From assembly GCA_003024785.1 (NCBI GenBank), contig PUQB01000583.1, positions 62,001 to 126,000 of the forward strand: a stretch of DNA of 64,000 nt. Reading direction: 5' to 3'. Of the stretch, positions 3,561-40,461 are shown piece after piece. This DNA comes from Selaginella tamariscina. Taxonomy: Eukaryota; Streptophyta; Lycopodiopsida; Selaginellales; Selaginellaceae. Under the pieces are notes generated by a model, which was given only the letters and a program-made list of their open reading frames with translations, was not told the origin of the DNA and made no database searches. How positions within the stretch are numbered: position 1 is the stretch's first letter; each line of letters opens with the position of its first letter. Position numbers and translations under genes: made by a program.

Positions 3561-3756
3561 ATCAGATTGCGTTGTGCCTGGACTCTTGTGCCATACCCGC
3601 TTAGTAATCTAATATTATTTTCAATCACTCTATCGATTTTATACTAATAAATTCATATATTAATAACTTTTATAATTTAATATCTGAAGTCAGTCCTCCC
3701 ATTGATATTAAATTATTATCTCTAGAGACAATAATGTGTGCGCATCTGTTTGTTTT

Positions 3757-7313: not shown

Positions 7314-7385
7314 TTGTAAAAACAAGCTTTGCAAATGAGTATAGAGATATATGATTGAGATGATCATTTGTTTCCCGAGCATCTT

Positions 7386-10748: not shown

Positions 10749-11351
10749 TTAGCAACACGTGAGAGCCATTAACATTTCCAATGCATTTGTTAAGATCACG
10801 AACCAATTCCGTACCACTGCAGATAGCTTTCACGTTGGTACCTCCGTCGATGCGGACACTGCTACAAGATTGAGTTACGTTGCTTGTACAGTCAAGCTGG
10901 CGAGTGGTGCTATTGAATCCAACACACCGGTTTATGTCGATGCAGGTTGGGAGTCTTATTCTGTTGAATTATCGATCAAACATCTTGCACATAGGGTAGT
11001 ACCGTTGAGGAGAGATCAACGCAAGTCAGTTGAAAAGTCGCAAGGAACCTGCAAATTCAAAGAAATGTGTCATTATTCTTTGCAACAGTGAAGCCCCACG
11101 TGTGTGTGTTACATTCTCTCGTGTCCTTGACATGTTTTATGGATAAGATTTTACACTAAACATTACAACTTATATAACAACCACTAAGGAAAGGACTGCT
11201 GAATTACTAGTCTTAAAACTAAGACATTTTCATCTGAAAATTACATAATGAAACAACCATATAAAGAATCTAATCTGTGTACACGTACTTGAGCATGGCT
11301 GACACCAGCTAAGAGCATGCTCAAGATCACGAAAGCACGAATGTAGGCCAT
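10749..11351 (-). pseudogene. CVNH lectin pseudogene F, copy 1
   Basis: Exon 1 (11289-11351) encodes an intact signal peptide, MAYIRAFVILSMLLAGVSHAQ without its last residue, and ends at GTACGT. Exon 2 (10749-11048) starts V-P-C-D-F-S but soon hits a stop. Further on, 'aacagaataag' has lost one base relative to paralogues (which have 'aacaggaataag'), giving a second stop. The second defect is present in both copies, so F was already dead before duplication. The C-terminal half still reads QSCSSVRIDGGTNVKAIC and ends LTCC-stop. A TATA box lies at 11431-11438. Confidence 0.82.
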
Positions 11352-13369: not shown

Positions 13370-13594
13370 TGGCCCATGCACCCATGGCCCATTAGAAAAC
13401 CTCATGCATGCGTAAACATCCCGGATAAGGTTGGCAAGACTTTCAAGAGTGCAATCCAAGGTAGAACTTCATTGGTGAAGTACAACACGCAACTCTATAC
13501 AATAACACAAAGTGGGGACTATATAAGGAGACCTTGAACAACAAAGTTCACATATCTTCTTTACAAATTTGGGAAGTTTCCATTCACAAATTAA
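13370..13594 (+). promoter_or_regulatory. CVNH promoter of gene E, copy 1
   Basis: TATATAAG at 13520-13527, 68 bp before the ATG, preceded by 'aataacacaaagtggggac', a cognate of the block in genes B, D and F. Repeated 'ggcccat' elements (about 13325-13392) are TGGGCC-type site-II candidates. 'ccaaggtagaac' lies near 13458. Confidence 0.72.
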
Positions 13595-14168
13595 ATGGCC
13601 TCCATTGGTGCTTTCGTGATCTTGAGCATGCTCTTAACTGTTGGCAGCTATGCTCAAGTACGTATACACAGATTAGATTCTTCATATGGTTGTTTCCAGA
13701 TTTAAGTGTATTATAATGTCTTATATGTATTGTAAAGTAATTTCAGCAGTTCCCTTTCTTTAGTGGTTGTTCATGAGATCTCTATATAAGTTGTAGTGTT
13801 TAGTGTAGAGTCCTTATCCATAAAACACGTGCGCATCTTTGTTTTGACACATTTCTTTCAATTTGCAGGTTCCTTGCAACTTCTCACAGACTTGCGTTAA
13901 TCTCACCTCCAGTGGTACTATTCTACGTGCAGACTGTTTCGTCGTCGATTCAACAGGACAAAGACTCACAAGCTCCATCAACATAAACGATTGTGTTGGG
14001 CTCGATCGCACTGCTGGCCAGCTTGACTGTTCAAGCAACGTAATTGGATCTTGTAGCAGTGTCCGCATCGAAGGTACCAACGTGAAAGCTACTGCAGTGG
14101 TGCGGAATTGGTTTCGTGATCTTAACTTATGCATTGGAAATGTTAATGGCAAGCTCACGTGCTGCTAA
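13595..14168 (+). CDS. Secreted CVNH lectin E, copy 1 (open, locally altered)
   Basis: Exon 1 (13595-13657) encodes MASIGAFVILSMLLTVGSYAQ less one residue, a clean signal peptide, then a GTACGT donor. Exon 2 (13869-14168) follows TTTGCAG and encodes 99 residues starting VPCNFSQTC and ending NGKLTCC. The frame is open throughout, giving 120 aa. Compared with copy 2 and paralogues, a T is missing near 14092 and a T is added near 14118. The segment between reads KATAVVRNWFRDL instead of the family's KAICSGAELVRDL, losing a conserved Cys that should pair in the second disulfide. Either a mildly damaged gene or two compensating sequence errors. Confidence 0.85.
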
Positions 14169-14221
14169 AGTTGCTATCTGTATGTGTTTATGCTGAGATG
14201 TTAAGAGTGATTAACATCTCT

Positions 14222-14247
14222 TAAGTAAATAAAAGAAAATAAAACGG
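14222..14247 (+). promoter_or_regulatory. Polyadenylation signals of gene E, copy 1
   Basis: Two AATAAA hexamers (14228-14233 and 14238-14243) lie about 60 bp after the stop codon. The surrounding 'taaataaaagaaaataaaac' is conserved after other family members, for example near 4110 and 42900. Confidence 0.65.
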
Positions 14248-15704
14248 TTGTTGTTATTTTTTTCTCTAGTTTTTGTTACTATATAAATGCAAAGCGTGCA
14301 ATAGCCATTCCCAGTACACTTGCAATCACTGTATTGCTCCAGCTTCTTAAAGAGCTCAACCGCTAAGAAGTGTAGACAAGCTCTCTCCTCGTGTTTTTTT
14401 AGGAACAAATCAAATATAAGTTCATTTAATTCATGCATTCGTGTATAATCTGTAAAAGTTAAGAAGGTTAAAACAATATTAAAGAGGCACATGTAAGGGG
14501 TGAGGAAGTTAAGTTGAAACAGTTTAATTAGAAATTTTGTCCTTCCAAACGTTTTGAAAAATAAAATTCAAGATATGTCTGCTTTTAATACAGCGACAAA
14601 GGCCCCTTTTCTTAATTACAGTTAATTAAATTAATGATTTTATATGGATTTAAAAGATATAAATTAAAAAGATCTTCACGGTTAATGCATTTGATCTATC
14701 TACATGATTTAATGTATATAAATTTTCCTTAAATACATGTTATGTCAAATCCTGAAGAATTCAAATTGTCTAGAACTACGTTTTAATAAGACAAAAGAGT
14801 ATTTTTAATGATGATTATTATTATTAATTACATATAAATTGTACATAAAAAGCAACTAGAATTTAATGATTATTTATTATTAAACATAAGTATCTAAATT
14901 GAAAATAAAAGAATGGTGATGTAGATATGACAACCAAGGTTATAACAATTATTTAGGAGCATAGTGTGTCAACAGAAGCCCAGAGAATAGTGAATTTTGC
15001 AGAAGTAACAGAACAGCTCTCTCTCTCTCTACACACTTGGTTTCGAATTACAAAATATGAATATGAGATACATATTATGAAGATATAGACAAAGAAATAC
15101 ATGTGAAATTGAGTATGTGTACATGATGTGTCTAATGATTGAGTATGTGTAGCTTTATAGGAGTAAAATCATTAATATGATTTAATATTTAGATTATTTA
15201 GAGATGGTTTTTATCTTAATATGCGTAATATAATATATTTAGTCTGATCTGGAATATTTATTTATAATAAGCAATAAGTTTATCATTAATATTTTTTATA
15301 AAGATACAGAAACATAATATGAAATGATGTAAAAGCATATACGAGTGCAAGGGCCAGTTGATATTATTAAGATTTTGAGTTCCCAACCACATTGGATATT
15401 TTATCTTATGTATTATTAAATTTAAGTAATTTATTGTTGATTTTTCAGACGGATCGTTCTGAAAAGTGTTCGCTGGGTCTCCAATGTGTGAAGAATTTTA
15501 TCTGAAAAGTGCATGCTCGCTCTCCAACGTGTGAAGGATTCTATTGTCTGTTGAGAGATAGTTTGAATCGTAGAAGAAACAGAAATTATAAGATGTTGAA
15601 TCTTCAATCAAATCCATACATAGAGATAGTTGACTAACATCTTGTGATTTCATTCAAGATGTACCTGGGAATGGATACAAAATAAATGTTAAAATGGGAA
15701 TATA
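14248..15704. other. 3' flank of gene E and right end of copy 1
   Basis: No gene supported. It contains the forward-oriented 3' flank module ('aaccaaggttataacaatta' near 14932, CT run near 15021) and then AT-rich DNA up to the duplication edge at 15704, where a truncated gypsy element begins abruptly. Confidence 0.6.
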
Positions 15705-16331: not shown

Positions 16332-18166
16332 TGTCAGAGTTTTAACCCAAAGGGCTAACACGTGGTAACACGTGGCTGCCAGGTGGCCATTCGGCGTCAT
16401 TACCCTATGTGATCAACGCTAAGTTTCCCAGAACAACCCCAACGACCCCTAGGGTTAGACTCTAATGCCCAAGTGGACAAGAGACTTAGGGTTTAGCCTA
16501 AGTCTCCCTAGAATGTCTGCCCCCAGAACCCTTGAGGGATAACCCTAGTTGACTTAGGGTTTTGCCTAAGTCTCCCTAGAATGTCTGCCCCCAAAACCCT
16601 TGAGGGATAACCCTAGTTGACTTAGGGTTTAGCCTAAGTCTCCCTAGAGTGTCTGCCCCCAAAACCCTTGAGGGATAACCCTAGTTGACTTAGGGTCTTG
16701 CCCTAGAAGACCTAGACAGGCTCATGCCCTAACCCCCATCAAGGAGACGTGTGTTCCACACATACCCCGTGACAGAGCTAAGGCATCGTCACTTACCCCT
16801 TGAGGAATCACCCTCATCCGGGAGTACAACCCCTTTAGGGCAACAAGGGGTACCCTGAACCACGACTAACCCCTAAGGGTTTGAGTGGCCAAGTATACCC
16901 TAGACCTAGGGTTAGTACTTAGTGAGGACACGAGTGTGCGCCGTAGGCGGACACGAGTGTTCTGCTAAGCAAACTCCCTAAGGCTAGGTTTGGGATAACC
17001 CTAAGCACATGACCTTGCGAGTGCCTCACGAAAGGGCTCCTGCTAATATGTTTAGGTTGTTCAACCCTTGAATTCCAAGGAGAACACTCCCCTAGCCAAG
17101 TGTGCCAAAGCACACCTAGTTATGAGACCTAACCTCCCTTGAGCGGATGCCCAAGGCTTAGCACCCTAGTGCAAGCACAAGCATGTCTGTTTGCTAAAGT
17201 ATCCAACCCCTTGGCGACAACCATGACATAACCCCAAAGGGCTGCCTAGGCGTTGTACCATGTGACGTTTAGCCCAGTGTCACATCTCCATGTGACACTG
17301 CCTTCCCTGATGTGGGCTATCATGCCATAGCCCTTAGATTCAAGAGTTGCACCAAGTGCCACAAACGTGGCTCCTAAATGCCAACTCTAGAACCCCTCAA
17401 TGAACCCTCAGGAACCAAGTAACATGAACCTGTCAAACAAGATCCCACGCACAGTTGGACAAGGACACGGATGTGCCTTGCTTGGCCGTGAGTGCTACAC
17501 CTAGCTTGACGTGGAGGAGGAGGCTGGAGACAAGCCTCAACCTCTGCCTCTTGGAACGTGCATTCCGACAAGACCTCCCAGGCATGGATTCGCCAACGTT
17601 AAGGGTAAGCTACCCCGAAGGTGGGACGTACCCCTGGCATCTGGAAGTTAGGGCGGCACAACAGAGGGTTGTGCCTTAACGACACAAGCTAGAGCTTGCA
17701 CCGGGAGAAGAGTAACGAGCTCAGTCATGAACCCAGGAACCCTCACTCCTATATACTACCTTATTTATGTGACAGAGCCCCCCCCCCTGTTTTCCTGTTT
17801 ACATAAGTGGGCTAGCACTGAAATCTCATTCCCAGAGGGAACATACTTGGTGAGTTATCCATCGACCCCTAAACCCTAACCTGTCAAACCTGGGGGTATT
17901 TCTAAGCATATCCGACATCGAACTCACCAAACTAGCCATTAATCCAACCAGGACAGAAAACGAGGGTAAGAGTTTTCTAAAGGTAAGTGCTACCTTCGCT
18001 TAGAGTTTCTCGAGATATCTAAGGACAGCCGGCCGGACTACCCCTAAACACCTAAGTGCACTAAGCGGGGCTGTTTCTCACTACATCTAGGGCTTGTCAA
18101 CATAGTACAGTAGGTAACAACAGTCAACGTCCAAAGTAAAGAGGAGTCATAGTAAAAACTATGACA
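16332..18166 (-). repeat. LTR (3' LTR in element sense)
   Basis: 1835 bp, GC-richer than surroundings, closely similar to 21872-23641 and to the inverted solo LTR at 24903-26662. Contains a C run near 17780 and three 68-bp units. Ends carry the short inverted repeat TGTCA...TGACA. Confidence 0.9.
16483..16686. repeat. Three 68-bp tandem repeats in the left LTR
   Basis: Units begin at 16483, 16551 and 16619 ('gacttagggtttagcctaag' and variants), with a partial fourth start at 16687. The right LTR has only two units (22020-22155), and the solo LTR has three near 26295-26500. Copy number has therefore changed since the LTRs were identical. Confidence 0.88.
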
Positions 18167-21871: not shown

Positions 21872-23641
21872 TGTCAGAGTTTTAACCCAAAGGGCCAACA
21901 CGTGGCAACACGTGGCTGCCAGGTGGCCATTCGGCGTCATCACCCTTGTGAGCAACGCTAAGTTTCCCAGAACAACCCCAACCCCTAGGGTTAGACTCTA
22001 ATGCCCAAAGTGGACAGGAGACTTAGGGTTTAGCCTAAGTCTCCCTAGAATGTCTGCCCCCAGAACCCTTGAGGGATAACCCTAGTTGACTTAGGGTTTA
22101 GCCTAAGTCTCCCTAGAGTGTCTACCCCCAAAACCCTTGAGGGATAACCCTAGTTGACTTAGGGTCTTGCCCTAGAAGACCTAGACAGGCTCATGCCCTA
22201 ACCCCCATCAAGGAGACGTGTGTTCCACACATACCCCTGACAGAGCTAAGGCATCGTCACTTACCCCTTGAGGAATCACCCTCATCCGGGAGTACAACCC
22301 CTTTAGGGCGACAAGGGGTACCCTGAACCACGACTAACCCCTAAGGGTTTGAGTGGCCAAGTTATACCCTAGACCTAGGGCTAGTACTTAGTGAGGACAC
22401 GAGTGTGCGCCGTAGGCGGACACGAGTGTTCTGCTAAGCAAACTCCCTAAGGCTAGGTTTGGGATAACCCTAAGCACATGACCTTGCGAGTGCCTCACGA
22501 AAGGGCTCTGCTAACATGCTTAGGTTGTTCAACCCTTGAATTCCAAGGAGAACACTCCCCTAGCCAAGTGTGCCAAAGCACACCTAGTTATGAGACCTAA
22601 CCTCCCTTGAGCGGATGCCCAAGGCTTAGCACCCTAGTGCAAGCACAAGCATGTCTGTTTGCTAAGTATCCAACCCCTTGGCGACAAGCCCATGACATAA
22701 CCCCAAAGGGCGTGCCTCAGGCGTTGTACCATGTGACGTTTAGCCCAGTGTCACATCTCCATGTGACACTGCCTTCCCCGATGTGGGCTATCATGCCATA
22801 GCCCTTAGATTCAAGAGTTGCACCAAGTGCCACAAACGTGGCTCCTAAATGCCAACTCTAGAACCCCTCAATGAACCCTCAGGAACCAGTAACATGAACC
22901 TGTCAAACAAGATCCCACGCCACAGTTGGACAAGGACACGGATGTGCCTTGCTTGGCCGTGAGTGCTACACCTAGCTTGACGTGGAGGAGGAGGCTGGAG
23001 ACAAGCCTCAACCTCTGCCTCTTGGAACGTGCATTCCGACAAGACCTCCCAGGCATGGATTCGCCAACGTTAAGGGTAAGCTACCCCGAAGGTGGGACGT
23101 ACCCCTGGCATCTGGAAGTTAGGGCGGCACAACAGAGGGTTGTGCCTTAACGACACAAGCTAGAGCTTGCACCGGAGAAGAGTAACGAGCTCAGTCATGA
23201 ACCCAGGAACCCTCACTCCTATATACTACCTTATTTATGTGAGAGAGCCCCCCCCCCTGTTTTCCTGTTTACATAAGTGGGCTAGCACTGAAATCTCATT
23301 CCCAGAGGGAACATACTTGGTGAGTTATCCATCGACCCCTAAACCCTAACCTGTCAAACCTGGGGGTATTTCTAAGCATATCCGACATGCCGAACTCACC
23401 GGAACTAGCCATTAATCCAACCGGGACACAGAAAACGAGGGTAAGAGTTTTCTAGAAGGTAAGTGCTACCTTCGCTTAGAGTTTCTCGAGATATCTAAGG
23501 ACAGCCGGCCGGACTACCCCTAAACACCTAAGTGCACTAAGCGGGGCTGTTTCTCACTACATCTAGGCTTGTCAACATAGTACAGTAGGTAACAACAGTC
23601 AACGTCCAAAGTAAAGAGGAGTCATAGTAAAAACTATGACA
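21872..23641 (-). repeat. LTR (5' LTR in element sense)
   Basis: 1770 bp, very similar to the left LTR apart from one fewer 68-bp unit and scattered single-base changes. It would hold the element's promoter, but no single TATA box is called. Confidence 0.9.
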
Positions 23642-24363: not shown

Positions 24364-26925
24364 ATGGTTGATTTTGAACACTTTCAATGCGAGCACCAAA
24401 TGTTGCTTCATGAACTGGCCACTTTGCGCCAAGTGTCACCGATCTGCAAGGTTCCACCAATGGGCACATGCAGCTGCCGATGCATTCTCCAAGGCTGTGC
24501 GCATGCTCTCTCTTAAGCATCGGTGGTTCCCTCTTCATCGAACTTTCTTCGGAGCCAAAGATCAGCATGCCAGAAAAGTTCATGACAATCGTGCTGATTT
24601 CAAGGTTTTCTGAATCAGATCCGGCTCTTGATCTGCATGCAACCACGCCTACTCGACTGATGCATAAAAGGTTGGCCTTTTGGCATCCTTATTAATTAGA
24701 TCTCCACGGGCTTGGGTTGCCCCTGGAGCGTGATGACCCATTAATGAAAGACTTTGAAGGTTTTGTGGTTGCCTTTGAAGCCTGTTTTGAAGATCCTGAT
24801 AAGTACCATTCATCATGCACGAAGTTACAAAAGCTCACCCAAGGATCCCAATCAGCTTCCGGTCTATGCATTCTGAATTTCAGCAACTTTGCACGAACAT
24901 TCTGTCATAGTTTTTATTATGACTCCTCTTTACTTTGGACGTTGACAGTTGTTACCTACTGTACTATGTTGATAAGCCCTAGGTGTAGAAGAAACAGGCC
25001 CACTTAGTGCACTTGGATATCTATGATGGTCCGCGGGTGTCATTAGGTATTTGCAAAAAATCTGGCGAAGCTAGCACTTCCATCTAAAAAACTCTTACCT
25101 TAGTTTTTCGTGTCCCAGTTGGATTAATGGCTAGTTCCAGTGAGTTCAGCATGTTGATATGCTTAGAAATACCCCCATGGTTTGACAAGTTAGGGTTTAG
25201 GGGTCGATGGATAACTCACCAAGTATGTTCCTCTGGGAATGAGATTTCATTGCTAGCCACTTATGTAAACAGGAAAACAGGGGGGGGCCTCTGTCACATA
25301 AATAAGGTAGTATATAGGAGTGAGGTTTCTGGGTTCATGACTGAGCTCGTTACTCTTCTCCCGGTGCAAGCTCTAGCTTGTGTCGTCAAGGCACAACCCT
25401 CTGTTGTGCCGCCCTAACTCCAGTTGCTAGGGTATCCCACCTTTGGGTAACTTACCTTAACGTTGGCGAATCCATGCTGGGTCTTGTGAGAATGCACGTT
25501 CCAAGAGGCAGAGGTAGAGGCTGTCTGCAGCCTCCTCCGGCCAAGCAAGGCACATTCGTGTCCTTGTCCAAATGTGGGCGTGGGATCTTATTGACAGGTT
25601 CACATTACCAGTTCCTGAGGGTTCTAGAGTTGGCATTTAGGAGCCACGTTTGTGGCACTTGGTGCAACTCTTGAATCTAAGGCTATGGCATGATAGCCCA
25701 CATCGGGAAGGCAATGTCATATGGAGATGTGACACTGGGCTAAACGTCACGTGGTACAAACCCGAGGCACGCCCTTTAGGGTTATGTCATAGGCTTGTCG
25801 CCAAGGGTTGGATACTTTGCAAATAGACATGCTTGTCTTGCACTGGGTGCCTAAGCCTTGGGCACCGCTCAGGGAAAGTTGTCTCATAACTAGGTGTGCT
25901 TTGCACACTTGGCTAGGGTGTTCTCCTTAGAATCAAGGTTGAACAACCTAAGCGTGTTAGCAGGAGCCCTTTCGTGAGGCACTCGTTAAGGTCATGTGCT
26001 TAGGGTTATCCCAAATCTAGCCTTAGGGAGTTTTGCTTAGCAGAATACTCGTGTCCGCCTTGGCGCACACTCGTGTCCTCACTAAGTACTAGCCCTAGGT
26101 CTAGGGTATGACTTGGTCACTCAAACCCTTAGGGGCTAGTCGTGGTTCAAGATCCTTGTCGCCCTAAAGGGGTTGTACTCCCGGATGAGGTGATTCCTCA
26201 AGGGGTAAGTGAACAATGCCTTAGCTCTGTCATGGGGGTATGTGTGGAACATGCGTCTCCTTGATGAGGGTTGGGGCATGAGCCTGTCTAGGTCTTCTAG
26301 GGCAAGACTCTAAGTCAACTAGGTTACCCTCAAGGGTTTTGGGGCAGACACTCTAGGAGACTTAGGCTAAACCCTAAGTCAACTAGGTTATCCCTCAAGG
26401 GTTTTGGGGTAACACTCTAGGGGAGACTTAGGCTAAACCCTAAGTCAACTAGGTTATCCCTCAAGGTTCTGAGGGCAGACATTCTAGGGAGACTTAGGCT
26501 AAACCCTAAGTCTCCTGTCCACTTGGGCATTAGAGTCTAACCCTAGGGGTCGTTGGGTTATTTTGGGAAACTTAACGTTGCTCACACAGGGTGATGACGC
26601 TGAATGGCCACCTGGCAGCCACGTGTTGCCATGTGTTGGTCCTTTGGGTTAAAACCCTGACACATTTCATGAGACGAGACTGCATTGATCGAACACTTCC
26701 GTTTGGGTTGAGAAATGACGTGAAGGACCTTCTTCTTACGTTATAGAATGCCCAAATTAACGGAGATCATGCAACAGCCGTTCGCTGCAACAATTGTTTG
26801 TTCGAGCGTCGTCAGGAAACCCGTCAACAGTTCTTGCAAACCAATCCTACAGTTGTGGTACATGTTCCTGCAACACCTTCTGGAGGGCACAACAAAGATT
26901 CTAGCTCTTGAGCAATAGTGATTGT
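24364..26925 (+). pseudogene. Ty3/gypsy gag pseudogene split by a solo LTR
   Basis: Before the break (to 24902), shifting frames give EPKISMPEKF, RADFKVF and then LPLERDDPLMKDFEGFVVAF followed by EDPDKYHSSCTKL. After the LTR (from 26663) the gag text resumes: RRDCIDRTLPFGLRNDVKDLLLTL, shown here as RRDCIDRTLPFG and LRNDVKDLLLTL, then AVRCNNCLFERRQETRQQF. This is the capsid region of a chromovirus-like Ty3/gypsy element of the kind found in early land plants and fungi. A stop and several frameshifts make it non-functional. Confidence 0.8.
24903..26662 (+). mobile_element. Solo LTR, opposite orientation to the 16-23 kb element
   Basis: 1760 bp reverse-complement homologue of the LTRs at 16332-18166 and 21872-23641, beginning TGTCATAG and ending CCCTGACA. 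Flanking 5-mers CATTC and CATTT form a 4/5 target duplication. The host gag reading resumes directly after it. No internal region remains, as expected after LTR-LTR recombination. It is visibly more diverged than the paired LTRs are from each other. Confidence 0.9.
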
Positions 26926-27238
26926 AAAAATATCTAAAATGGAAGGAAAGTGCAGTAAGAAAAGATTTACCAAATTTGATTTTGCAAAGATAATGTTCAA
27001 GGTACACATTGATTACTTTCTTCTTCCTTTGTTAACCCTTGTTCTTTTAAGAATGAGACAGAGGACTTAGAGAATGTTGTCAAACAAGCCAAGGAAACGT
27101 TGAGAGAGCAAATTTGACACAAACAAATATATAAAAAGCACAACCTACATATGATGAAAAGTTCACGTCTATTATTGGCCCAACCTTGGGCAAGGACTAG
27201 TTTCAAAGGGTCACCAACATCCCTCTTAGGCAATGCTA
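26926..27238. other. Spacer between gag remnant and methyltransferase pseudogene
   Basis: About 310 bp in which I see no supported feature. The gag similarity fades after the 'ggagggcacaacaaag' text near 26883. Confidence 0.4.
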
Positions 27239-28889
27239 GTGGATGAGGCTAGAGAAGCTGTATACACTTTCAAAGGCAAACGAATTGAGGATCTGGTACT
27301 TAAATAAGCTTGGCTGCCTGAACAAGAAGGATGGGCAATAGACCCTGGCAAGGCTTTAAAGATCTTGGAGAATGATTCATGATGAGGCTTTAAAGATCTT
27401 GAAGAACATGTGTGAGGACGGCGACAACTTAGGAACAAACAAGGACTTCTCCTATTGGTTTGACAAGATGAGAGCCAGGTGTAAGACTTTTATGTTTCAA
27501 CCTTTTCTTGAGTGTATATGATTCATGTTCTCTATTGAGCCAAAGGATTTCCTCGACCAAGAGGAGAGGATGATTTGGAGGTATGTAATAGTTTTCAATA
27601 TTACTTTCAACTGATACATTGTTCAAATTTGTAGTGGCAAAGAAAGTCATTCTATCACCACAATAAAGCTTTGGATGGACTACATGGGCTCTTCTCATAT
27701 GTTGAGCAAAAGGACATCTTTACTAACCCCATTTGAGTGTCACCAAGTGCTCTTTTGGTTGGACTTTCTAGAGGGAGAACCACTAGCTTGAGAAGTAGAC
27801 ATGCATAAGCTACACATTGATAACTTGTTGTCACTCTCATGGCAACCCAAGGAAGTGGAGGTAGTTTTGAAGACAAGGACCAAGAAATGGATTACACCTC
27901 TAGCAAATGCAACCTCAATAAGGTACTTTAGATATTAAGGACAACTTATTGTTATTCATCTCGACTTTGGTTATTGCTCAAGGTAGGTATGACTTAGTTG
28001 TGTGTGACATAAAGGATATGAATAGGTCTTTCTTTGATGAGGGTGTTGAGTAGTAGGAAACTTACAACATGTTGCATGATCTTTTTGATGAACAACACAC
28101 CTCAAACTCTCAGACAAGGTTTCTAGAGGGGGTGTGTGAGTACAATTTCAATCTTGTCATATTAGATCTCCTCAAGCCTCTGCCGTCATCCTTGGACAAC
28201 AACTTACTGCATCTTAATGCAGTAAGATTTGATGAAGCTCTTTAATTCACAAGGATGCACTTGTCCACAAATGGTTATAAGATGGTCTTTGCAACGGTCT
28301 CCATGATCTGTAGAGTTGTACATGTGACTAATGTCATCAAGCTTGAGCATTCAACAATATATTTCGTCCACCACGAACAAGGATGGGAATATCATCACGG
28401 GATGAAGGTATTACTCATAATTGTTCTTTAGATCTTATTTCATTTTCTATGAAACATTGATTGTGATGTTGCCTTTTCAAGTATTTAGAATTGTTACAGT
28501 GACCAATCAATTGTGGCTAGGAAGTACAATCCTCATGGAATACAAGATCGCTACTAGTCCGCATGGTAAGATTTCTTGTTGTAGTTCTCCTCTAATTGTG
28601 TACTTGTAAACTTCATCTATAACCTAAGAGTGTGCAACTTATGCAGCTCATAATCAGCAAGCTTACAAAGGAAAGCAATCTTGTTTGGGATATAGGGTCA
28701 AGTACAAGATCACTTATGGTTGCAACGATCGATTTGGAAAGAAATGTTTTGGGAACAAAGAGGTTGTTCAAGCTTGCAAGGATTGCCAATGCAAGGATCG
28801 CAAGTGAATTGACTCAACCACCTTCTAATGCAACTCAGGCCAACAGTTTTAGGATCATAGCAATGCTAAAGAAAAAGAGAAACATGTAG
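27239..28889 (+). pseudogene. Decayed multi-exon DNA amino-methyltransferase
   Basis: Fragments of a permuted beta-class amino-DNA-methyltransferase, motif IV before motif I. Early pieces read TFKGKRIEDLVLK and PEQEGWAIDPGKALKILEN. Near 27960-28020 LVIAQGRYDLVVCD appears, followed by IKDM where the DPP(Y/T) catalytic motif should be. A short exon near 28482-28565 ends SAW at a GTAAGA donor inside the Trp codon. The next piece (about 28645-28810) reads SKLTKESNLVWDIGSST and SLMVATIDLERNVLG, the SAM-binding motif I with its second and third glycines changed to S and R. Several stops. The SAW intron matches one in the intact-looking gene at 30493-34797, supporting homology. Confidence 0.72.
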
Positions 28890-29640: not shown

Positions 29641-30196
29641 AGAGTTGTTTAAATAGCATGAAGCTTTCCTATTAAAAAATGAAATTTATTACAAATTTAT
29701 CATTATAAAAATCAAGCTTATTTAGCATTATTGATTTTTTTTTATTTAATTAACTTAGTTTAAAATCTTTAAAACTTTAATTCTCTTTTTACAATATCAC
29801 CACTTTTTAACTCATATCTTCATTTGTTATTTAGGTCCTCTTGGAAAGAAAATAAAGTAAAAGGAAAAAAAAATTAATTTTTTCTTAAATTGAACTTGTA
29901 AAATTCCCTTATTAAGGTTCAATCACGAGTTAAGTATTTGTCCTTTTTATAAGTTCAATATATTAATAATTTTGATGTTCATTTCATAATTAAGGATGGC
30001 CTTTTACTTAGGAATATTTTAAATAAATTGCTTCATTATAATTTTATTTTTTTAATTAAGTTTATTTTTTCAAAAACTTTCCATACTCATCCAGTAGACC
30101 GCTCTTCTTAAGCAGATTTTTTTTTTTTTTTTATTTTATAATCTTGGAGTTCACTCCTGAATGAGAAGAACGATGCATCTTTAGACTTCCAGAGTT

Positions 30197-30246
30197 TCTG
30201 TAGCACTTTCCTCCCTAAAATTACACTGATTTTGACAGGTAAACCT
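30197..30246 (+). repeat. 50-bp direct repeat, left
   Basis: Starts 'tctgtagcactttcctccct' and ends 'gacaggtaaacct'. Differs from 39036-39085 at one base (T against A after 'ctaaaa'). The preceding 'ccagagtt' also precedes the right copy, with 8 extra bases there. Confidence 0.93.
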
Positions 30247-30255
30247 GTCATACCG

Positions 30256-30313
30256 GAATATTCCATTCCGTATAGAATATTCGTTTTCGTATAAAGAATA
30301 TTCTGGTGCGGCG
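30256..30313 (+). repeat. Left subterminal GAATATTC cluster and terminal inverted repeat
   Basis: GAATATTC occurs at 30256, 30275 and 30296. CCGTATAGAATATTCG (30268-30283) recurs on the same strand as CCGTACAGAATATTCG at 38907-38922. AGAATATTCTGGTGCGGCG (30295-30313) is inverted at 38826-38844. Such subterminal arrays often bind the transposase; that role is inferred. Confidence 0.8.
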
Positions 30314-30492
30314 AGCGAGCAATCATGGCGGCACGGTAATGTGTCAAAGTTTCACAAATTTGGGGGTTAATCTGACATATATATTTATATTTATGTTTTT
30401 ATTTTTTAATATTTATATTTATAACTATAATTATATTTTTATATAAATACCGCATCAAACTAAATAAAAATTACAATAAAAACATAACTCAA
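30314..30492. other. AT-rich 3' region of the methyltransferase gene
   Basis: Short AT-rich stretch between the left end of the element and the stop codon of the minus-strand gene. Reading the minus strand, TTTATTTAG and similar poly(A)-signal-like words lie just downstream of the stop (near 30460), so transcription probably ends inside the element. Confidence 0.4.
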
Positions 30493-33400
30493 TCATGAAG
30501 ACTCGTTTCCACCAGCCAGTGCCTCGTCGTTAATGAATGCATTGTTACGGTGTCGTGAACGTTTCTCCAAAATCTGTCTGTCGTAAACTTCGAACTCTTC
30601 AACCATTTTCTTTGCCATCTGATTAGCGTAGTCTGGTAGAACAATACTGAAAACATATTAAAGTTTAAAACCAAAGAAATGATAAAACAAATCTCACTCA
30701 TCATCTGATGACTCGTATGATCTCTCTTCTGCTGACTCATCTGATGACTCGTCGTTGTGCTCCACGGACTTCTCCGTAACAACATCCTTGTCGTTTCGAG
30801 AAGGCGGATCCTGGTCTCCATCGTTGTCGCTAGCCAAAGGCAAATCCTGTGCTTCTGTTTCCATGGCCCTCTTCCACTCATCAAAAGGAGTAATCATGGA
30901 AACAACTTGATCATCCCCACCACCTTCAGCTGCTGTAACACTTGGAATGACCTTCCTGAAGACATCTCTGGCTGCTAAAACCAGATCCTTGTTGATGTCG
31001 ATTCCATAACCATGTCTCCCTGTGTGAAAAGCTGCAAGAATACTAGCACCGGTTCCCACTGTTAGATCCACAACAGTTCCACCAGGCTTTGTGAGCTTCT
31101 CCACTAGCATCGCAAACAACTTGGGAGATTTCGGGCCAATTGAAATCCTGAAAGTTACAATATTAGAACATGAGAAATAACAAACAACATTATACCATGG
31201 GAGCTGGAAATCTTCTGGCTCATCAAAAAGAAGAGTGTAGCGAGTGTCCAAGATCTCCTTGTTCTTGGCAACCTTAGAGTAGGGGGAACCAAAAATACAC
31301 ATGGCAATGATGCTTTCCTGAAAAAAAACATTAAAAAATGACATTCTCAAAAAGAAGAATTACCTTTCTAGAGAAACGGTATCCCCATGACTTTGTCGTG
31401 TGCACATAACTCATCTGCAGAAACTTTAGCTTGCAAGTTTCTGCAGTGTTCTTCAAAGCTAGAACATCATCCGGTAGCACAAACACTACCACATGGCCAG
31501 CTCTGTCTAATATCCCGAAAGCAAGGTTCACCAAGTTCTTCAGCAAAGCATCCGAGAACTTCGTGTATTGATCCACCATCCCGCCTGCCTCAGCAACGCA
31601 TCCGGTAGGCGGGTCGATGACAACGAGATCAACAGCTCCCTGGATGCATTTTGGTGGAGGCTTCGCACCAAACACATGAATAGTCCAACTTGACTTGTGA
31701 CTCACGATCCAATCCTCAAGCTCCTTCAATCCTGACGGAAAAGGCCTTCCGGCTTTGAAGTACTGGACTGCAAGGTTCTCTGAATCTGCATGAATGATTT
31801 CCCAGCTTCCATTTCCCTTCTCAGGCATCACCATCCTCAACATATCATCTTCTTCCAATCCAGCCGAGATGAAGGATGGGGCTGAAGAAGAAGCTTGTCC
31901 CTTGCTGACCTTGCTCGCCGATCTAGCATACCTGATATCCATCTTCACATGGAGCTTCCTTGCAGCATTGTCGTTCTTCCATAATAGCTCTCGCCGATCA
32001 TCCTTGTGTATCTTATAGCTGGCCATCTCCCATTCGGGACAGTCACCAGGAAGGAAATCCAGCCAGAAAGGACAGTGTTCCACTTCGTAATCACTGATAT
32101 CACGTAACAACCGGCTCCACATGCTAGAATCCTTGGTAACATCCATCCACTCTTTGAAATCTTCAGGGAGTGCATCGTTTTCCATTTTAAAAACCTGTAA
32201 AAATAGATAAAAATCTGTAAAGAAACAAAAAAAAAACTTGCCTGAATGCCATTCTTTTTGCAGATTTTTCCAGCTCAAATAGTCGAAGGTGGAATTGTCG
32301 CACCGAACTCCTTGTTCTCGAGCATGTTCTGGTACATATCCAACTTAATTTCATTGTGCATCTTCATATACCATGTCATGAACTCCTCTACATGCTCGAC
32401 CAAAAGCTCTTTAGCTGCCTCCTCCTCTATAATAAAATATAAATATTAAATTACACTGGAACCAGTAAGTAAAGATGTGCAAAAACTTGATGAAGTCCTT
32501 GTCAGGCCAGCCGGTGACACCTTCCTTCTTGTCTTTCTCCGTCATGTTCACCAGCTTCTCAAGAACGCCACGTTCTTGAATGTGCACAAGCTTTCCAAGG
32601 ATATCAACCTTGACGTTGGAAGGAAGCTGGGACTTCGCGAGCATTTGAAGCTTCTCCAGAGTTATTTGCTTCGTTGATGGTTTGATAGTGATATCTGTGA
32701 TCGCCTTGAACCAATCTTCACCGACCGCCGGATCAGCAATGGTGAGGAATTTGTTCATCCGAACTGTGAATGTCTTGTAAACGCTGGAGAGGATCTGAGA
32801 TTCTGTCTGGTTTGGTTTTCTGTTCGCAAGTTTTGTAGCGATTTGTCGCTTCAGTTGATTCTGCAAAAGAAACCGAAAATCAAAAAACAGTCAAAAGAAG
32901 AAGAAAAGATTACCTCCCAAAAAATCTTCACCAATGTCGTCTTTGGATACTCGTACCAAACGTCTTCTTTTCTGTTCGATCTCCACACTTCCACAGCTTT
33001 TCTATCTTCCTCCGGCATCCCGCGAAGAACATGATCGGTAGAAAGATCTGCAGACTTCACACAACAATTCCGTAAGAACTGCAAGGTGTGAATGATTGTT
33101 GTAGGAACCACACGAGCAGTTGCTCTGCAAAACAAAACAACATTTATTTAGTATTTAAATAATGAAACAAACAAGTCACTTACTCATTCAACCGATTGCA
33201 AGCAGCGATTAGTCTCTTCTCCTCTTGCACTGTGGATGCTATGAGTGTTGCACGTACACGCAAAGTCCATTTCAAACCTGGCTCTTCAGCAAGCAAAGTG
33301 TTCAAAGCAACCCGACGATGATTCCCATCCCACACCAGAAACTTTGCATCTTTCAGAAATCGATACCATGCAGAAAATGCTGGCTTATGCAAATCCGCTT

Positions 33401-34797
33401 CAAACTCTCTATCGACCTGTGCTTCTGACTCATTCCAACTTCGGCGTTCGTCTGCACTCAGCTGTGGTCCGAAAGATAAGGTGAACACTGACGTCTCCTG
33501 GTAAAATCCTTCAGCTCTAATCCATCCAACAAGGTCTTTCACGCCGTCCTTAGTGACATTCCTCAAACGTTGGTGTGGGAGCAACCTGTGAACCGGGATA
33601 CGCGGAGGCTCACCAAGCTCAACTGGAACGTAGTGGTCTCGTCCTTGTAGCGATGTGTCAATATCTGTGTCATACCGAATAACAAGATCCCGAAGAAGCT
33701 TGGATGGAGCCTCAAGTGTCAGCCGCTCCGGAATTGCATATGATTCGGCAACATCCTCAGGAGCATCCAGTTTCCTCTTCTTATTGAACATTTTACTACC
33801 AAGATCAATATCCGGTACTTCCTCTGCATTACCGTGTTCTGCAGAGCTTCCTGCAATCTCCCTATTTCTAGGCATCCATTCACTCACCACAGTATGTTCA
33901 TCAATGACTTGCGAACTATCCACTTTTGTTCGTCGGCATCATCTCTTTGTGTTGCAGTTGTTGCTTGGCGCCTCGGCCTCCTTTCTTGCCACGAGGTTTT
34001 GGAGCCATATCTGCAAGAGCTTCTTGGACGATATGTTCTTGAAGTGTCAAAGTCTTGTATTTATCTCGTAGTCTCTTACTCTGCCTTTGTCTCATTCTGC
34101 AATTACAACAACTGATAAGTGTGTGTGTGAGTTGTTTTAATTTATGGACACACATTTACTATATATGTATACCTATCAATATATATAGACACACGCACAC
34201 ACACACATATTTATACGTGTAATGTTGTTTGTGTGTGTGCTCACTATATAATGTTCCTTGTGTATGTGTGTAATGTTGATTATGTGTGTGTGTGTGCAAT
34301 GTTGTTTGTGTTTTGTGATGTGTCTGTGTGAGAGAATATGGGTATATTCATATCTCTTCACATGTATATACAGACGAAAAAGCATCATCTCATATATACA
34401 AGTCTTAAATTCATATACTTATACATACATACATACATACATAATAATATATATAATATATATATATAAGTCTTTTTAAGTATGTATTTAAATATATATA
34501 TTTATATATACACACACACATGTATACAAGTCTAATGTTGTATAATCATACGTGTGTAAAATGTTATTTATGTGTGTGCGCAACACACACACACACACAC
34601 ACACACGGATTTCCTGCCCGAATTGGCAGGAAATGGTGTGGTGTGTGTGGTGTGTTTGCCGAAATCGGCAATAACTCATGCGTCGGAGGTGTGTGTGTGT
34701 GCACACGCGCGTGCGTTTGTGAATAAAGAAATCCTACTGAATTTGCACATACATTCACAGAAATTACTATACACATATATAAGATTTTACCTGTAGC
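30493..34797 (-). CDS. ParB/Srx-like domain fused to permuted DNA amino-methyltransferase
   Basis: Predicted DNA modification enzyme (N6-adenine or N4-cytosine) with a ParB-like partner domain. Exons seen: start exon near 34788-34797 (ATGGCTACAG then GTAAAA); about 33184-34012 (basic MAPKPRGKKGG, then the ParB-like region with IPVHRLLPHQRL and LVWDGNHRRVAL); 32914-33124; about 32458-32860; 32242-32426; 31364-32194 (AVDLVVIDPPTG, catalytic motif IV); 31196-31317; 30698-31147 (VVDLTVGTGASILAAF, SAM motif I, then an acidic ESSDESAEE tail); 30493-30646 (DIVLPDYANQMAKKM to stop). Motif IV before I means a beta-class permutation. Oddities: in-frame TGA at 32274-32276, a likely extra A near 33925, a GC-AG intron at 32195-32241, and an unresolved join near 32458. 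It is probably a recently inactivated gene or one with sequence errors. Confidence 0.8.
34165..34725. repeat. TG/CA- and TA-rich simple repeats in intron 1
   Basis: The long first intron of the minus-strand gene (about 34013-34787) is filled with CA/TG runs (near 34190, 34215, 34285, 34585, 34690), 'catacatacatacatacata' near 34423 and TA runs. Between two TG runs are 'ctgcccgaattggcag' and 'tgccgaaatcggca', two small hairpin-forming palindromes. Confidence 0.8.
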
Positions 34798-35440
34798 CAT
34801 GTCGCCGTGACGCTCACACTAGCCTCTTGTCGCCGCAAAAAAAAGAACAAAAGTGCCCTCTCTCAACAATGGAGAATGGAGAAGAAGAATGGGTAGTCCT
34901 GAACCTTTACCCTAAAATCTAACACTTAACCCTTTGACCCTTAACTATAAAACTGTGTTTAATTAAACCATACAACAGTATATAATACTTACGATAAATA
35001 ACATACTATATAAAAGGATACAAATACAAACACATATTTAAGTAAAAATTTGTATGTTAAAAAACATATTATTATATAATTAAATAAATATTCGTGTAAA
35101 AATATGTATTTATAATGTCTACATCTGATAAAATACTGGATCAAATAACTATATAATTATAATAAATAAATTAACAGAATATAAACAAGTCATAAATAAA
35201 TATGTCAGATGAATGTAGATTAGACACACATTTATTTAAAAGACAATAAAGATTGCTCTATCTCTACGTGAAGTGCTATACTATATTAGCATCTAAGATC
35301 TATACGTTTCCTTGAATTAAATATTCGCCCACGTTGAGTCATGATTGTGAATTTTTGAAATGGTAATATCCGATATTTACCAAAAGATGATTAAGTAATG
35401 CTGTTGTTTTTCTGTCACGTTTGTGGTAACTGCTTGCAAA
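34798..35440. promoter_or_regulatory. Divergent promoter region between the two transposon genes
   Basis: About 640 bp separates the start of the minus-strand methyltransferase gene from the plus-strand transposase ATG. The left part (34800-34880) is purine/pyrimidine-skewed and leader-like; the rest is very AT-rich. 'ctatataaaagg' near 35009 and 'ctatactatatta' near 35275 could serve as TATA elements, but no pair is convincing. Shared control of both genes is an inference from layout. Confidence 0.45.
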
Positions 35441-38400
35441 ATGGCCAGGATTGTTTACGGCAATTTGGATCACGATGTTCCTGTGATAGATGGTGTTGGA
35501 ATCATTCTTACTAATCAGATTAGAACGTTCTTTGGCATTTTTGATTGGCAAAGTGTTCGTCTTTTTAAACTTCTTCATGGGCAATCTGCTTTAGAGATCG
35601 AAATAAACGAGGACCAAGATGCTGGAGGGAAGGATAATCCAGGATATGTTTTGTTACCGGATGAAGGACCATTGTTTAAGCTTGTCGTTGCTTCTGACTC
35701 TGAATACTCAACGTTGAAGAACCTTTTCACTTCTAATACCTGCAAAAAGGGAAGAATTCTTATCGAGGGTTCCACGATCATTCATACAAATGAATTGCCT
35801 ATTGCGTATGATGGGGATGTCATTTTTGAGCTCCCTCCTTCCGAATACAAATACAAAGGAATGAATCGGAAAGAGGATGGACATACCTGGACAGCAGGAA
35901 CGACCAGCAACTGGAATTTTCAAGCGAGGGTGTCCAGGAGCAAATGTGTTGGGAGCCTTTGCTGTATCAACCCGGACTGCCCTGCTTCTAAGGCAGGATT
36001 TCCGAACTGCACTAAATGGAAAGGATGTATTGTTTCCCCACCTTCAATCGACAAACTGGCAAAAGGATTGACATGTTTTTTCTGTAAAGAAAATCCATTG
36101 TGCCTTGAAGTTTGTCATGCTGTGGCGTTTTGCGTTTTCCCAGACGACATAACCAAGACTAGATTGTTTATCCACCAGGGAAAACATTCACATCCAGTGG
36201 GTGATGGTGTTTCTGCATCGAACAAAGAAGAAATGCATATGGCGGTCCAGAATGCAACAGAAAGAACTCCCAGAGCTAGTCCAAGAGTCATCGAAATGGC
36301 AGCATGTAAAGATGCTATCTTTGGTTTCTATTAGATAATTCTGAGCCTGGAAGTTGGGATAAGCTCATGGATCATTTGCAACCATTATCAAACAATCGAA
36401 GGTACAATTAGAGTTTTACTTTGTGCTGAGCATTCTTTGATAATACCTTTGATGCAGAGTTCGTCAATGGGTAGCGTCCGCAAAGAGAACTGCTGCTGAA
36501 ATGCCAGAGAATATTGATGGATTATTGGAGCTGAAACGAAGGTTGTCTATCCCATTCATCCACGTGATTCACTATCCTGGGATGAATTTCCGTGGTTCAG
36601 ACGACCAGGCATTAGTTTTTAAGATGACGGTTTCAGGGCCAGGTTCTGGAATCGATTATGTAAGGATGTGCCAACCTCCTCTTGGCCCTTTGCAGAAGAG
36701 TTGGGTTCTACTTGATCACACACACCGTGTTGTTGATAAGTGGATCACTCTGGCATTGCATGTTTACGACCCAAAGTAAGATGTTATCTTTTTGTTGTTT
36801 GCTTAACTCTTTGATTATTTTATAGTGTGCGCCGATTATCCACCATTGCTTATGGTGACATGAAGAGACAAACGGCTGGAGCTGTGGAGAAGTTTTTTCG
36901 TGCTATGTTGGATGTCTGTTCCGAGAAGGGAATCTACAATGTGCAGTTCGCTGGGTTTATGTCCGATGAAGCAGGAGCGATCTGGCAAGCAATTAGGAAT
37001 GTGTTCTTTAATGGCCAAGAAATTCCTGGACGTGAACGGAGCTGTATCTTTCACTATGAACAAGCCATACAACGTGTGACAAGGAAGTGGGTCCCTCTTG
37101 AACATCAACAACAACATCTTCAACTTTTGAGATCATGGCCAACAGCCACATCAACAACTGATCGTGAAGAAATTGAAAATAATCTTTTCCGCTTTTGGAA
37201 TGAAAATGTGAAGGATGTTGGAGTTATGCAGACGTGGTTTTCATGGTGGGAAAGACAGAAGAATCATATTTCAAATGTTGTTCTTGAAAGCATGCCGGAG
37301 AATGCTGCAAGGGTTGTGCCCATGACAAACCAGTCGGAGTCTGTTCACGGAAGATGGAGGAGGGCTAGAGATTCAAAATACATTTCATTGTACCAAGCTA
37401 CAATCCACGACCTGACTGAATCAGTGCGACAATGTGCTCTTGTGAAGGCTTTTAGAGATGGAAGGTATAGTGGTTCCGGGCCGACTTCAGAGGAGCTCTC
37501 AGCAAGGTTCGAGAGAAGAATGTCAAATGCTAACTCAACAACACCTACAGCAAAGGTTATCATCGACTTAGTTGAAGATGTTGCTCCATCAAGCATGCAG
37601 GATACTGCTTTTGTGGCTGCCACGAATGTTGAACATCGCACTGTGCAAAGAAATATGGGGTCAGAGGCTGAACGATCCCACCGACCGGACATCTTCTATA
37701 GTGAACAGGTTATTCCAACACAGTGTAGACGGAAGCGACGATTGGATTTTCAACTTGCAGAAGAACATGAAGAATATGTTCTGGTTGAAGAACAAGATGT
37801 TACACCTGGACAATGGGCGATTAGAAGATGTGGTGAAAGAAGTTCTGTGAAATGTCTGGCAGGCTTTCCCTCTTCAGGAGGTCAGTGGAGTGCTTGTGAC
37901 AAAAAGATCAGTCCTAGTGGTAATCGAGTGGCTGCTCCTTGTTTTTTTGGAAGGATCAGATACAATGACAAAGAAACTGGTGAAGAATGCTTTCGCTCAC
38001 AAATGATGTATTTTTGTCCAACAAACATGCTTTGCAACAGACATCCAAGACCAACTATTGTTTCTCCGCCAGCTTCTACCTCGGTTTGGAAAGTTCAAGT
38101 GGGCACGAAGCTGATAGCAATGGAGATCAATGATCTGGCAAGATCAGGTTTTATGCTAGCTGGGCTTCCTTCAGCTCATGCAGGAGTGCCAGGTTTTTCA
38201 ACACCTCATGTTCCTTCAGTTCCTGTTGGAGTCACTGGATTTTCAACACCCCCTGCACAATTTCGTGGACCTCCTGTTCCTGCAAGTGGTCGTGCAACAA
38301 GAACACCTTTAGGGATGTCTAAGAAACAACAGGTAAGTTTTGAAGCATGTTTGACGTTGGGAGCATATGTCGCAGAAGTTGACGTGGTTGATCCTCCAAC

Positions 38401-38659
38401 ATGCATTCGCTTCAGAGTATGTGACAACGACCATACATCTGCTTGGGTTGTCATTTGTAGCGCACCATCTTGTTCATGCTCGGAGTTCTGCAATGGTCGT
38501 CAGTGGGTGCCTTGCAAACATATGTATTTTGTTTACAAGCGTGTACTGGGAGCTGATCCTCGAGTTGTCAAGCATTTGCAACGTCGTACACTTGCACCCC
38601 GTGAACTAAGTTCTTTATTGATGCTACCAAGGAACCTCCATCCTCCACCATCTATTTAG
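35441..38659 (+). CDS. MULE transposase with GCM1-like and SWIM zinc fingers
   Basis: About 1035 aa in three exons: 35441-36401, 36458-36775 and 36826-38659. The ATG at 35441 is the first. Residues about 150-230 form a WRKY/GCM1-type zinc finger (KCVGSLCCINPDCPASKAG, then C and H ligands to HSHP), a DNA-binding fold known from MULE transposases. The catalytic DDE triad is visible: D in WVLLDHTHRV (36714), D in FMSDEAGAIW (36965) with the CIFH motif 25 codons on, and E in NQSESVHGRW (37337). A SWIM finger near the C-terminus reads CSCSEFCNGRQWVPCKH (about 38468-38520). Exon joins restore DPNVRRLSTIAYGDM. One fault: a stop at 36332-36334, where one missing base shifts into LLDNSEPGSWDKLM. Codon use and domain completeness suggest recent activity. 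Confidence 0.88.
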
Positions 38660-38825
38660 TGTGTTTGGTTTGTTTTCAAACAGCTTCGGTTTTATATTTG
38701 TTATTTCAAACTTATAATTTTCAATATAAATTTTAATGGTAATTTTATGCTTAGCATATTTTTAAGTAATTTAACTATATTTTCTTTAAATACAACAAAA
38801 ATATACTACCATATTTTGTATGCGG
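38660..38825. other. 3' region of the transposase gene
   Basis: AT-rich DNA after the stop codon. Possible poly(A)-signal context 'caatataaattttaat' near 38724. No other feature. Confidence 0.35.
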
Positions 38826-38973
38826 CGCCGCACTAGAATATTCTAGAATATTCTTGAAAATTTTGGAAGGTCCAATTGTGTGTACACTTGGCAGTACGAA
38901 AAATTTCCGTACAGAATATTCGAGGATATCTAGACGGAAATCGTACGGAACAACAGAATATTCAAGAATATTC
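38826..38973. repeat. Right subterminal GAATATTC cluster and terminal inverted repeat
   Basis: GAATATTC occurs at 38836, 38846, 38914, 38956 and 38966. CGCCGCACTAGAATATTCT (38826-38844) is the inverted partner of 30295-30313, with one mismatch. 'ccgtacagaatattcg' (38907-38922) matches the left end on the same strand. Confidence 0.8.
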
Positions 38974-39035
38974 AAATCTAGGTCAAGCTCGTTGACCTGC
39001 GCTCAATTTCGCCGTGCCCCCAGAGTTATAATCTC

Positions 39036-39085
39036 TCTGTAGCACTTTCCTCCCTAAAATAACACTGATTTTGACAGGTAAACCT
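39036..39085 (+). repeat. 50-bp direct repeat, right
   Basis: Near-identical to 30197-30246. It continues into 'agtgaaaactggaatagta', which resembles the copy-1 block near 6003-6040 ('gtaaacctagtgaaaactgg'). The right side therefore looks like pre-insertion host repeat. Confidence 0.93.
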
Positions 39086-40461
39086 AGTGAAAACTGGAAT
39101 AGTAACCCTAGGCAGAAACAATTGGTGTGAGTGAGAATGTACAAAGTACGCCAAGCAAACAAAGGCATATTACCTACCATAGAGTGGGCATCAAATACCT
39201 TGTCTTTCTTTTTAATCTGTTTATTAATTAAACTTAAATAAGTATTAAACCTATTAACTGGCACCTCCACCGTTATCTGTGACGTTTTTACTTAAAAATA
39301 ACTATATCGCGTGTATCTAAAACTTCACTCACAAGTAGACTTATATGTTTCTTTTTTTTAATTTCAATCACAACAAGACTTTTAGATTTTTTATTTTTTA
39401 TCTTTTTCCTTAGCATTGTTATTCCTTTCTTTGACTCTAATGTCTTAATTTAAAAAATGTGATTACTATATTTCATCTTCATCTTCGTCCTCTTGTATAA
39501 TGTGTTCATCGAACATGTCACTAGTATCTTATAAATTTATAAAGCAGCAATATCCCCACGGGTTGCAAATGAGCCCAGCTAACCTATGCATGAATATCCA
39601 GGCTGGAAACAAGCCTGGCATTTGGCCATGGTTGTGTTTTCAGCTTCTCGCCTCGTAAGCATAGAATTGTGGCTTTTCATGATTTCATTTATGTGAAATC
39701 GTTATCTTTATAGGTATAACTTGTAGGCATCAGATTATATCTTGCGTATGTATATCACATTCGTATAAATGTACTATAGATGCATGCATGATAAATTCTT
39801 GTATACATAAATGTATAACTAATCTGTTGTACTTTGAAAACATGTGTGAGAGAGAGGTTTCTTTGACACACTATGCACTCCTAGATAATTATTATAATCT
39901 TGATTGTCAAATCACCATCCTTCTGTTTCCAATTTAGAAACTATGCAAATGTGTAATTATAATAATAATAATCATTAAATTTCCAATTGCATTTGATATG
40001 TATGAATATATATGTAATTAATAATATTTTTTAATTTTTACTAAATTTTCGGAAGGATAAAGTTTTTAAATGAAACTATAAACTATCTTAGTTACATAAA
40101 TTTTGATGGACCCAACATAGCTTTGTCAAGTGTAAGATTCTCTTTGATATTGTTTTTTGATCTGTTACCTTTTACAGCACGATGCAGAATGCATGAATTA
40201 AATAAACTTATATTTGAAGAGTTACTGAATAAACGTAGGGAGGAGAGAGCTTGTCTACACTTCTTACATTTGAGCTCTTTAAGAAGCTGAACAAACCATA
40301 CATAGCAGTTGGGGATGGCTATTACATGCTTTGTATTTATAAAATAGTAACATAAACGACTTAAAACAAAGAAAATTAAATAAGATAAGTGCAACAGACC
40401 GTTTTATTTTCTTTTTATTTACTTAAGAGATGTTCAGCATAAACATAGACAGATAGCAACT
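39086..40461. other. Flank of the insertion, then collinear copy-2 spacer and 3' flank of A
   Basis: Bases 39086-39190 are present only in copy 2 and resemble the dispersed repeat at 5594-6428. From 39191 the sequence is collinear with copy 1 from 641. Bases about 40240-40420 keep about 165 bp missing from copy 1, including the family's 'gagctctttaagaagctg' and an inverted poly(A)-signal block ('accgttttattttc'). No gene. Confidence 0.6.

Follow-up and report, generated by a model that had tools for sequence, protein, structure and literature searches.

Within a 64,000-nucleotide stretch of contig PUQB01000583.1 from Selaginella tamariscina (the window, meaning the whole of the DNA that was analysed) lies an inserted element of 8.8 kb, in which a transposase gene resembling those of Mutator-like elements (MULEs) and IS256 stands opposite a gene that joins a ParB-like domain to a DNA methyltransferase. 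The pairing of transposase and methyltransferase is real in the copy examined, because both genes lie inside one insertion that has direct repeats and palindrome-rich ends. On balance, we favor the reading that the element is a DNA transposon of the MULE/IS256 kind carrying a ParB-like, beta-class DNA methyltransferase as cargo, and is probably a further case of the ParB-methyltransferase accessory gene described from algal transposons. The kind is already known; what is new is a transposase of the MULE-like type, together with the arrays of palindromes at the ends, and possibly also the host.

Limits and ends of the insertion

The window holds two copies of one duplication, copy A (1-15704) and copy B (29641-52977), whose matching pieces are 87-96% identical, with values of 94.9% and 96.4% for the two longest. 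Copy A is unbroken at position 641, and copy B has 30196-39195 as extra DNA at the same point, the flanks aligning on both sides (A 351-641 with B 29904-30195, and A 641-1661 with B 39196-40256). Inside the extra DNA, 30197-30246 is repeated directly at 39036-39085 with 49 of 50 bases identical, and CCAGAGTT, at 30189-30196, recurs at 39020-39027, so placed that it abuts the left repeat copy and stands 8 bases ahead of the right one. Since the left flank of copy A likewise terminates in CCAGAGT, the CCAGAGTT-side flank was taken as host sequence, and the limits of the element proper were therefore set between the repeats, wider than the limits of the genes. The initial annotation had described one insertion missing from the other duplication copy. 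Copy A is indeed continuous where copy B carries the insertion, but it cannot be taken as a clean empty site: a further ∼160 bp, to the right of the insertion in copy B (39036-39195), are missing from it as well. These ∼160 bp may be native, as suggested by a gapped alignment between 5989-6202 and 39059-39293 that is weak in its central part and was run with no control. In copy A, either the site was deleted or the element was lost along with some of the DNA beside it.

The palindrome GAATATTC occurs 12 times in the window, with three occurrences in the left end of the element, five in the right end, none in the 8.5 kb between them, and four elsewhere. When the ends were simulated with a first-order Markov model of their own sequence, the motif, which had been picked after being seen, appeared on average 0.02 times and at most twice, and none of 2000 runs reached eight. 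In addition, AGAATATTCTGGTGCGGCG of the left end recurs inverted at 38826-38844 with 18 of 19 positions paired, and is the longest clean inverted match (19 bp) between the ends. Long terminal inverted repeats are common in MULEs, although not universal, and between these ends none was found beyond the 19-bp match and the palindrome arrays. The arrays look like binding sites of a dimeric protein; both the ParB-like protein and the transposase are candidates. No bacterial promoter was predicted in a scan of 30240-30320, a result that is not informative. Elsewhere in the window, 60900-60924 is similar to part of the right end (92% of 25 positions).

The two genes, a decayed relative and the surrounding window

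The transposase gene extends from an ATG at 35441 to a stop that ends at 38659, with gaps at 36306-36334, 36402-36457 and 36776-36825, the first of which may be a frame break rather than an intron, because it measures only 29 nt. The 614-aa open reading frame at 36815-38659 is not due to chance. The large exon is matched by the NCBIfam IS256 model (E-value 1.1e-6), and the MULE DDE residues proposed by the initial annotation could be placed at D397, D464 and E588, with a spacing that we judge to be MULE-like. The same annotation had named a GCM1-like and a SWIM finger, and both can be recognized as Cys/His patterns by eye, but no MULE, FLYWCH, GCM or SWIM model of Pfam matched the transposase up to an E-value of 1, in a search whose filters drop most matches above about 0.1. 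A SWIM zinc finger following the DDE domain is common in MULEs.

The methyltransferase gene was modelled with six GT-AG gaps and one GC-AG gap, its end at 30493 being placed by eye, and the upstream ATG at 34095 lies in another frame. The two genes (35441-38659 on the + strand, 33875-30493 on the - strand) are thus divergent and contain intron-like gaps, as had been described, but the methyltransferase frame is broken. The Pfam ParB models did not match the exon with the ParB-like domain, which gave only a weak match to DndB (0.0017). For profile comparison, a phage ParB profile was built from 8 proteins, hand-picked among 60 listed of 749 records. Against this profile, the exon alone scored 25.0 (probability 11.8%), and the exon extended with downstream residues scored 25.9 (probability 13.4%), with 200 shuffled sequences reaching at most 19.4. 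Removal of a 40-residue loop raised the score to 36.0 (probability 82.5%, P 9.8e-6), compared with at most 19.6 in 200 shuffles; in the extended sequences tested, one N stands twice at the junction, an error that the exon alone is free of. The proposed ParB-like domain with its DGNHRR motif, scoring above all 200 shuffles, is upheld by this comparison.

Evidence for the methyltransferase half came from several profile searches. Pfam N6_N4_Mtase matched the spliced protein with 29.3 bits, above the cut-off of 26.7, and the unspliced one with 26.6 bits, just under it, and the C-terminal half matched the phage family phrog_67 of PHROG, annotated as DNA methyltransferase (4.4e-8). Beta-class DNA methyltransferases have a motif IV of the form (D/S/N)PP(Y/W/F) that precedes motif I, and the element protein has motif IV before motif I, which is the beta order. 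An alignment with the adenine methyltransferase MboIIA shows the two motifs in this order as well, with 0.1 bits for motif IV and 11.9 bits for motif I; at an E-value of 0.13 for the whole, it is supportive only. Accordingly, the claim of a methyltransferase with DPPT and a downstream S-adenosylmethionine (SAM) motif was borne out. In phage records, tblastn with the methyltransferase half found 3 records with E-values of 0.2 to 0.7, and tblastn with the ParB-like exon found no record. The single-sequence structure models were both poor, with mean predicted local distance difference test (pLDDT) values of 43.1 and 35.8, and a fold search with the model of pLDDT 43.1 was discarded, having given no match at or below an E-value of 0.001 among 457 listed (E-values up to 10).

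Outside the element, a decayed relative of the methyltransferase gene was detected by tblastn at 27159-27845, with 26% identity to the element protein over 249 columns (E-value 3e-8) and 49.3 bits; none of 60 shuffles exceeded 24.3. Beyond it come weaker pieces in collinear order, at 27979-28008 (E-value 0.77), 28261-28419 (0.003) and 28623-28754; for the last, the E-value is 9.8e-5 against a 2.7 kb target when composition is not adjusted for, and 0.15 in the search that gave the 3e-8. There is also a weak Pfam N6_N4_Mtase match at 28623-28886 (0.023). By eye, three gap positions agree with those of the element gene and CDIKD stands where motif IV would be expected; the reading frame contains stops. 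Residues 230-345 and 330-430 of the element protein, searched apart, gave no collinear match at the relative, and on its 5' side, before 27159, nothing was recognized by search; a repeated unit ends at 26663, before the relative. A similarity starting near 26690 is visible by eye, but no claim is based on it. The flank past the relative aligned with the left flank of the element at a score of 65, close to the simulated mean of 62, and 102 of 300 simulations reached 65. The relative suggests that the methyltransferase gene family may predate the insertion of the element in the host genome. As a side observation, the palindrome GGAATATTCC is found at 29128, 30255 and 60114 (3 versus 0.07 expected, with a maximum of 2 in 300 simulations). 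The first of these lies ∼240 bp past the decayed relative and the second ∼230 bp from where the element's methyltransferase gene ends; noticed after the fact, this is no more than a hint.

Features of the element and of the related locus; positions refer to the window.
Feature	Position	Strand	Remarks
Inserted element	30247-39019		8,773 bp, between direct repeats; absent from copy A
Flanking direct repeat, left copy	30189-30246	+	58 bp, target-site-duplication-like
Flanking direct repeat, right copy	39020-39085	+	66 bp, 8 extra bases
Left end	30255-30313		Three GAATATTC palindromes (30256, 30275, 30296) and AGAATATTCTGGTGCGGCG
Right end	38826-38973		Five GAATATTC palindromes (38836, 38846, 38914, 38956, 38966)
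MULE/IS256-like transposase gene	35441-38659	+	Four exons, 1,027 aa read through three gaps
Cys/His region resembling GCM1/WRKY-type finger	35936-36196	+	By eye; no Pfam match
SWIM-like CxC...CxH finger	38471-38521	+	By eye; no Pfam match
ParB-methyltransferase gene	30493-33875	-	1,005 aa read through; seven intron-like gaps; perhaps starts at 34095
Exon with ParB-like domain	33186-33875	-	WDGNHRR at 33312-33332
Exon with methyltransferase motif IV	31364-32194	-	IDPPTG at 31601-31618
Exon with SAM-binding motif I	30698-31147	-	VVDLTVGTGAS at 31042-31074
Decayed second relative of methyltransferase gene, outside element	27159-28886	+	tblastn, shuffles, weak Pfam match

The duplication itself carries an array of CVNH (cyanovirin-N homology) genes with many partial repeats in both orientations, and among ten open reading frames of the window given to Pfam, the four that came from the array all match the domain (E-values 6.5e-7 to 1.2e-17). 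CVNH domains occur in fungi too. When one CVNH protein was compared with solved structures, 13 distinct sequences were found up to an E-value of 0.01, mostly cyanovirin-N, and including 2jzj, which we take to be a protein of the fern Ceratopteris. A CVNH gene is reported in Ceratopteris thalictroides (PMC3645700). On these grounds a fern as host would be a guess. In passages of the Ceratopteris genome paper (PMC9477723), cyanovirin, Mutator, MULE and 6mA are not mentioned, a result that speaks neither for nor against a fern. Between the duplication copies lie three GC-rich repeat units of ∼1.6 kb (16551-18166, 22020-23641 and 24903-26446), two direct and one inverted. Farther along the window, a DUF7869 gene fragment occupies 61761-62423 on the - strand (Pfam 1.1e-21), with further exons by eye, perhaps of the same gene, to ∼63770, and remnants of a Gypsy-like zinc knuckle/protease and gag were noted by eye at 57188-57924 and 60400-60720, with no Pfam match for the two open reading frames at 57 kb. 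Scans of the window with Rfam, at gathering scores, and for tRNAs were empty.

Competing readings and a possible self-marking mechanism

Several results weigh against the transposon-with-cargo reading. No one reading frame stays open all the way from 32240 to 32430, and the reading used contains an in-frame stop; this would be due either to mutation or to assembly error, and because of it, one continuous protein is not encoded by the sequence as assembled. Motif IV reads DPPT and lacks the usual aromatic residue, which, like the broken frame, speaks against an active enzyme in this copy. When the loop is left in, the ParB probability is just 12-13%, and in a plain hidden Markov model search with the phage ParB profile the element protein did not rise above its shuffles. 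At 58 and 66 bp, the flanking repeat is far longer than the target site duplication of MULEs, which is 8-11 bp; no duplication of that length was found, and the remaining direct matches of at least 8 bases between the ends are GAATATTC-type motifs. The evidence for the element comes from one copy. No transposase was seen beside the decayed relative, and with two of the four transposase exons as queries, nothing with an E-value below 1 was found elsewhere in the window. Among the matches listed from a large protein collection, there was no homologue of the joined methyltransferase (7,995 candidates scored), and none for the transposase (7,086) or the motif IV exon (588). Pattern scans of bacterial and archaeal contigs and of viral contigs likewise found none. 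These negatives say little about rarity, as the contigs are from bacteria, archaea and viruses and the eukaryote share of the protein collection is not established.

Some of these observations raise the possibility that the pairing is accidental, a MULE having captured, or landed beside, a methyltransferase gene of the host or of another element in the manner of a Pack-MULE, with no role for it in transposition. The relative at 27.2-28.9 kb without a visible transposase, and the broken state of the element's own gene, are what such an accident might leave behind. The 5' side of the relic, where a transposase would lie, is unrecognizable, however, and in the element the gene and the transposase share one set of flanking repeats and end motifs. 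Genes of the same kind are, moreover, reported in transposons of brown, red and green algae (PMC12477816), and we regard an accidental pairing as rather unlikely. Separate arrival of two halves, one with the methyltransferase and one with the transposase, in nested events that left a composite insertion, would be consistent with the unusual length of the flanking repeat and with the AT-rich stretch full of simple repeats at 34100-35440 between the genes. Because palindrome arrays are found at both outer limits and that palindrome is absent between them, we consider this origin quite improbable. It is also conceivable, though unlikely, that the ParB-methyltransferase is a catalytically dead DNA binder that serves the transposase as an end-binding accessory factor, since this copy has DPPT, the relic reads CDIKD by eye at the same place, and the palindromic end sites would suit a dimeric binder. 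The SAM motif I is kept, however (Pfam 29.3 bits), and one copy and one pseudogene cannot show what active copies carry.

If the transposon-with-cargo reading is correct, the transposase would act on the palindrome-rich ends, and the ParB-like domain would guide the methyltransferase to DNA of the element itself, with the GAATATTC palindromes as a possible target. Methylation of N4-cytosine or N6-adenine might then mark the element, and could either shield it from host silencing or restrict its transposition to the time after replication, a role that Dam has for some bacterial transposons. Self-methylation by the element is plausible, and we give the self-marking mechanism as a whole about one chance in three. 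As its own methyltransferase gene looks broken, the copy in the window is probably derived from intact copies elsewhere or reliant on them. If intact copies exist, a bacterial-type module for DNA binding and methylation would have been joined to one more transposase family, this time perhaps in a land plant and not an alga. Its repeated uptake by unrelated transposons would speak for a benefit to transposition, and would provide a testable case of N4-methylcytosine or N6-methyladenine written by a transposon in a eukaryote. A bolder possibility, which we consider improbable, is a eukaryotic counterpart of parS-like marking, in which the ParB-methyltransferase would recognize the terminal GAATATTC and write N4-methylcytosine or N6-methyladenine on behalf of a MULE, perhaps in a land plant, allowing it to escape silencing or licensing its transposition, with the module picked up repeatedly by unrelated transposase families.

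Comparison with known systems

The initial annotation had noted that transposons with DNA-modification genes and phage ParB-methyltransferase fusions exist, and examples of both were found. Three phage proteins (L001, L002 and L004) have a ParB-like domain followed by a DNA methyltransferase, as the element protein does, but they are 404-445 aa long, have DPPY, and contain no long middle region. Fungal DNA transposons (KDZ and others) are reported to carry TET/JBP genes (PMC12730594), and these resemble the present element in having a DNA-modification enzyme aboard a DNA transposon, whereas their enzyme is a dioxygenase and their transposases belong to other families. The same account describes MuDR families with cargo, namely the anti-silencing proteins of Vandal elements and a SET-domain MuDR of Phytophthora (PMC12730594). 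Those elements are, like this one, MULE-type transposons in which an accessory gene may counteract silencing, but what they carry is a gene for a histone methyltransferase or for an anti-silencing protein that is sequence-specific, and not a DNA methyltransferase.

The annotation had also been unaware of any description of the pairing. A ParB-methyltransferase opposite a transposase is in print, and it is the MULE-like partner that we did not find in the open literature, where the studies of Iyer 2011 and Petroll 2025 may include one. The printed case is Sola1-1_Ec32 of Ectocarpus, a 21.5 kb element described as having, opposite the transposase, a gene for a 1,104-aa protein with a ParB-like and a methyltransferase domain, the predicted product of the latter being N4-methylcytosine or N6-methyladenine (PMC12477816). 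The source also mentions similar accessory proteins in transposons of green and red algae, citing Iyer 2011 and Petroll 2025, and giant EnSpm elements with several accessory genes in red algae (PMC12477816). Compared by description only, the element reported here differs from Sola1-1_Ec32 in its transposase, which is MULE/IS256-like and not Sola1, and in its length of 8.8 kb. The two are alike in being DNA transposons with a gene for a ParB-like N4-cytosine/N6-adenine methyltransferase of similar protein length on the strand opposite the transposase, and the algal transposons of Iyer 2011 and Petroll 2025, known to us through the same source, carry a similar accessory protein (PMC12477816).

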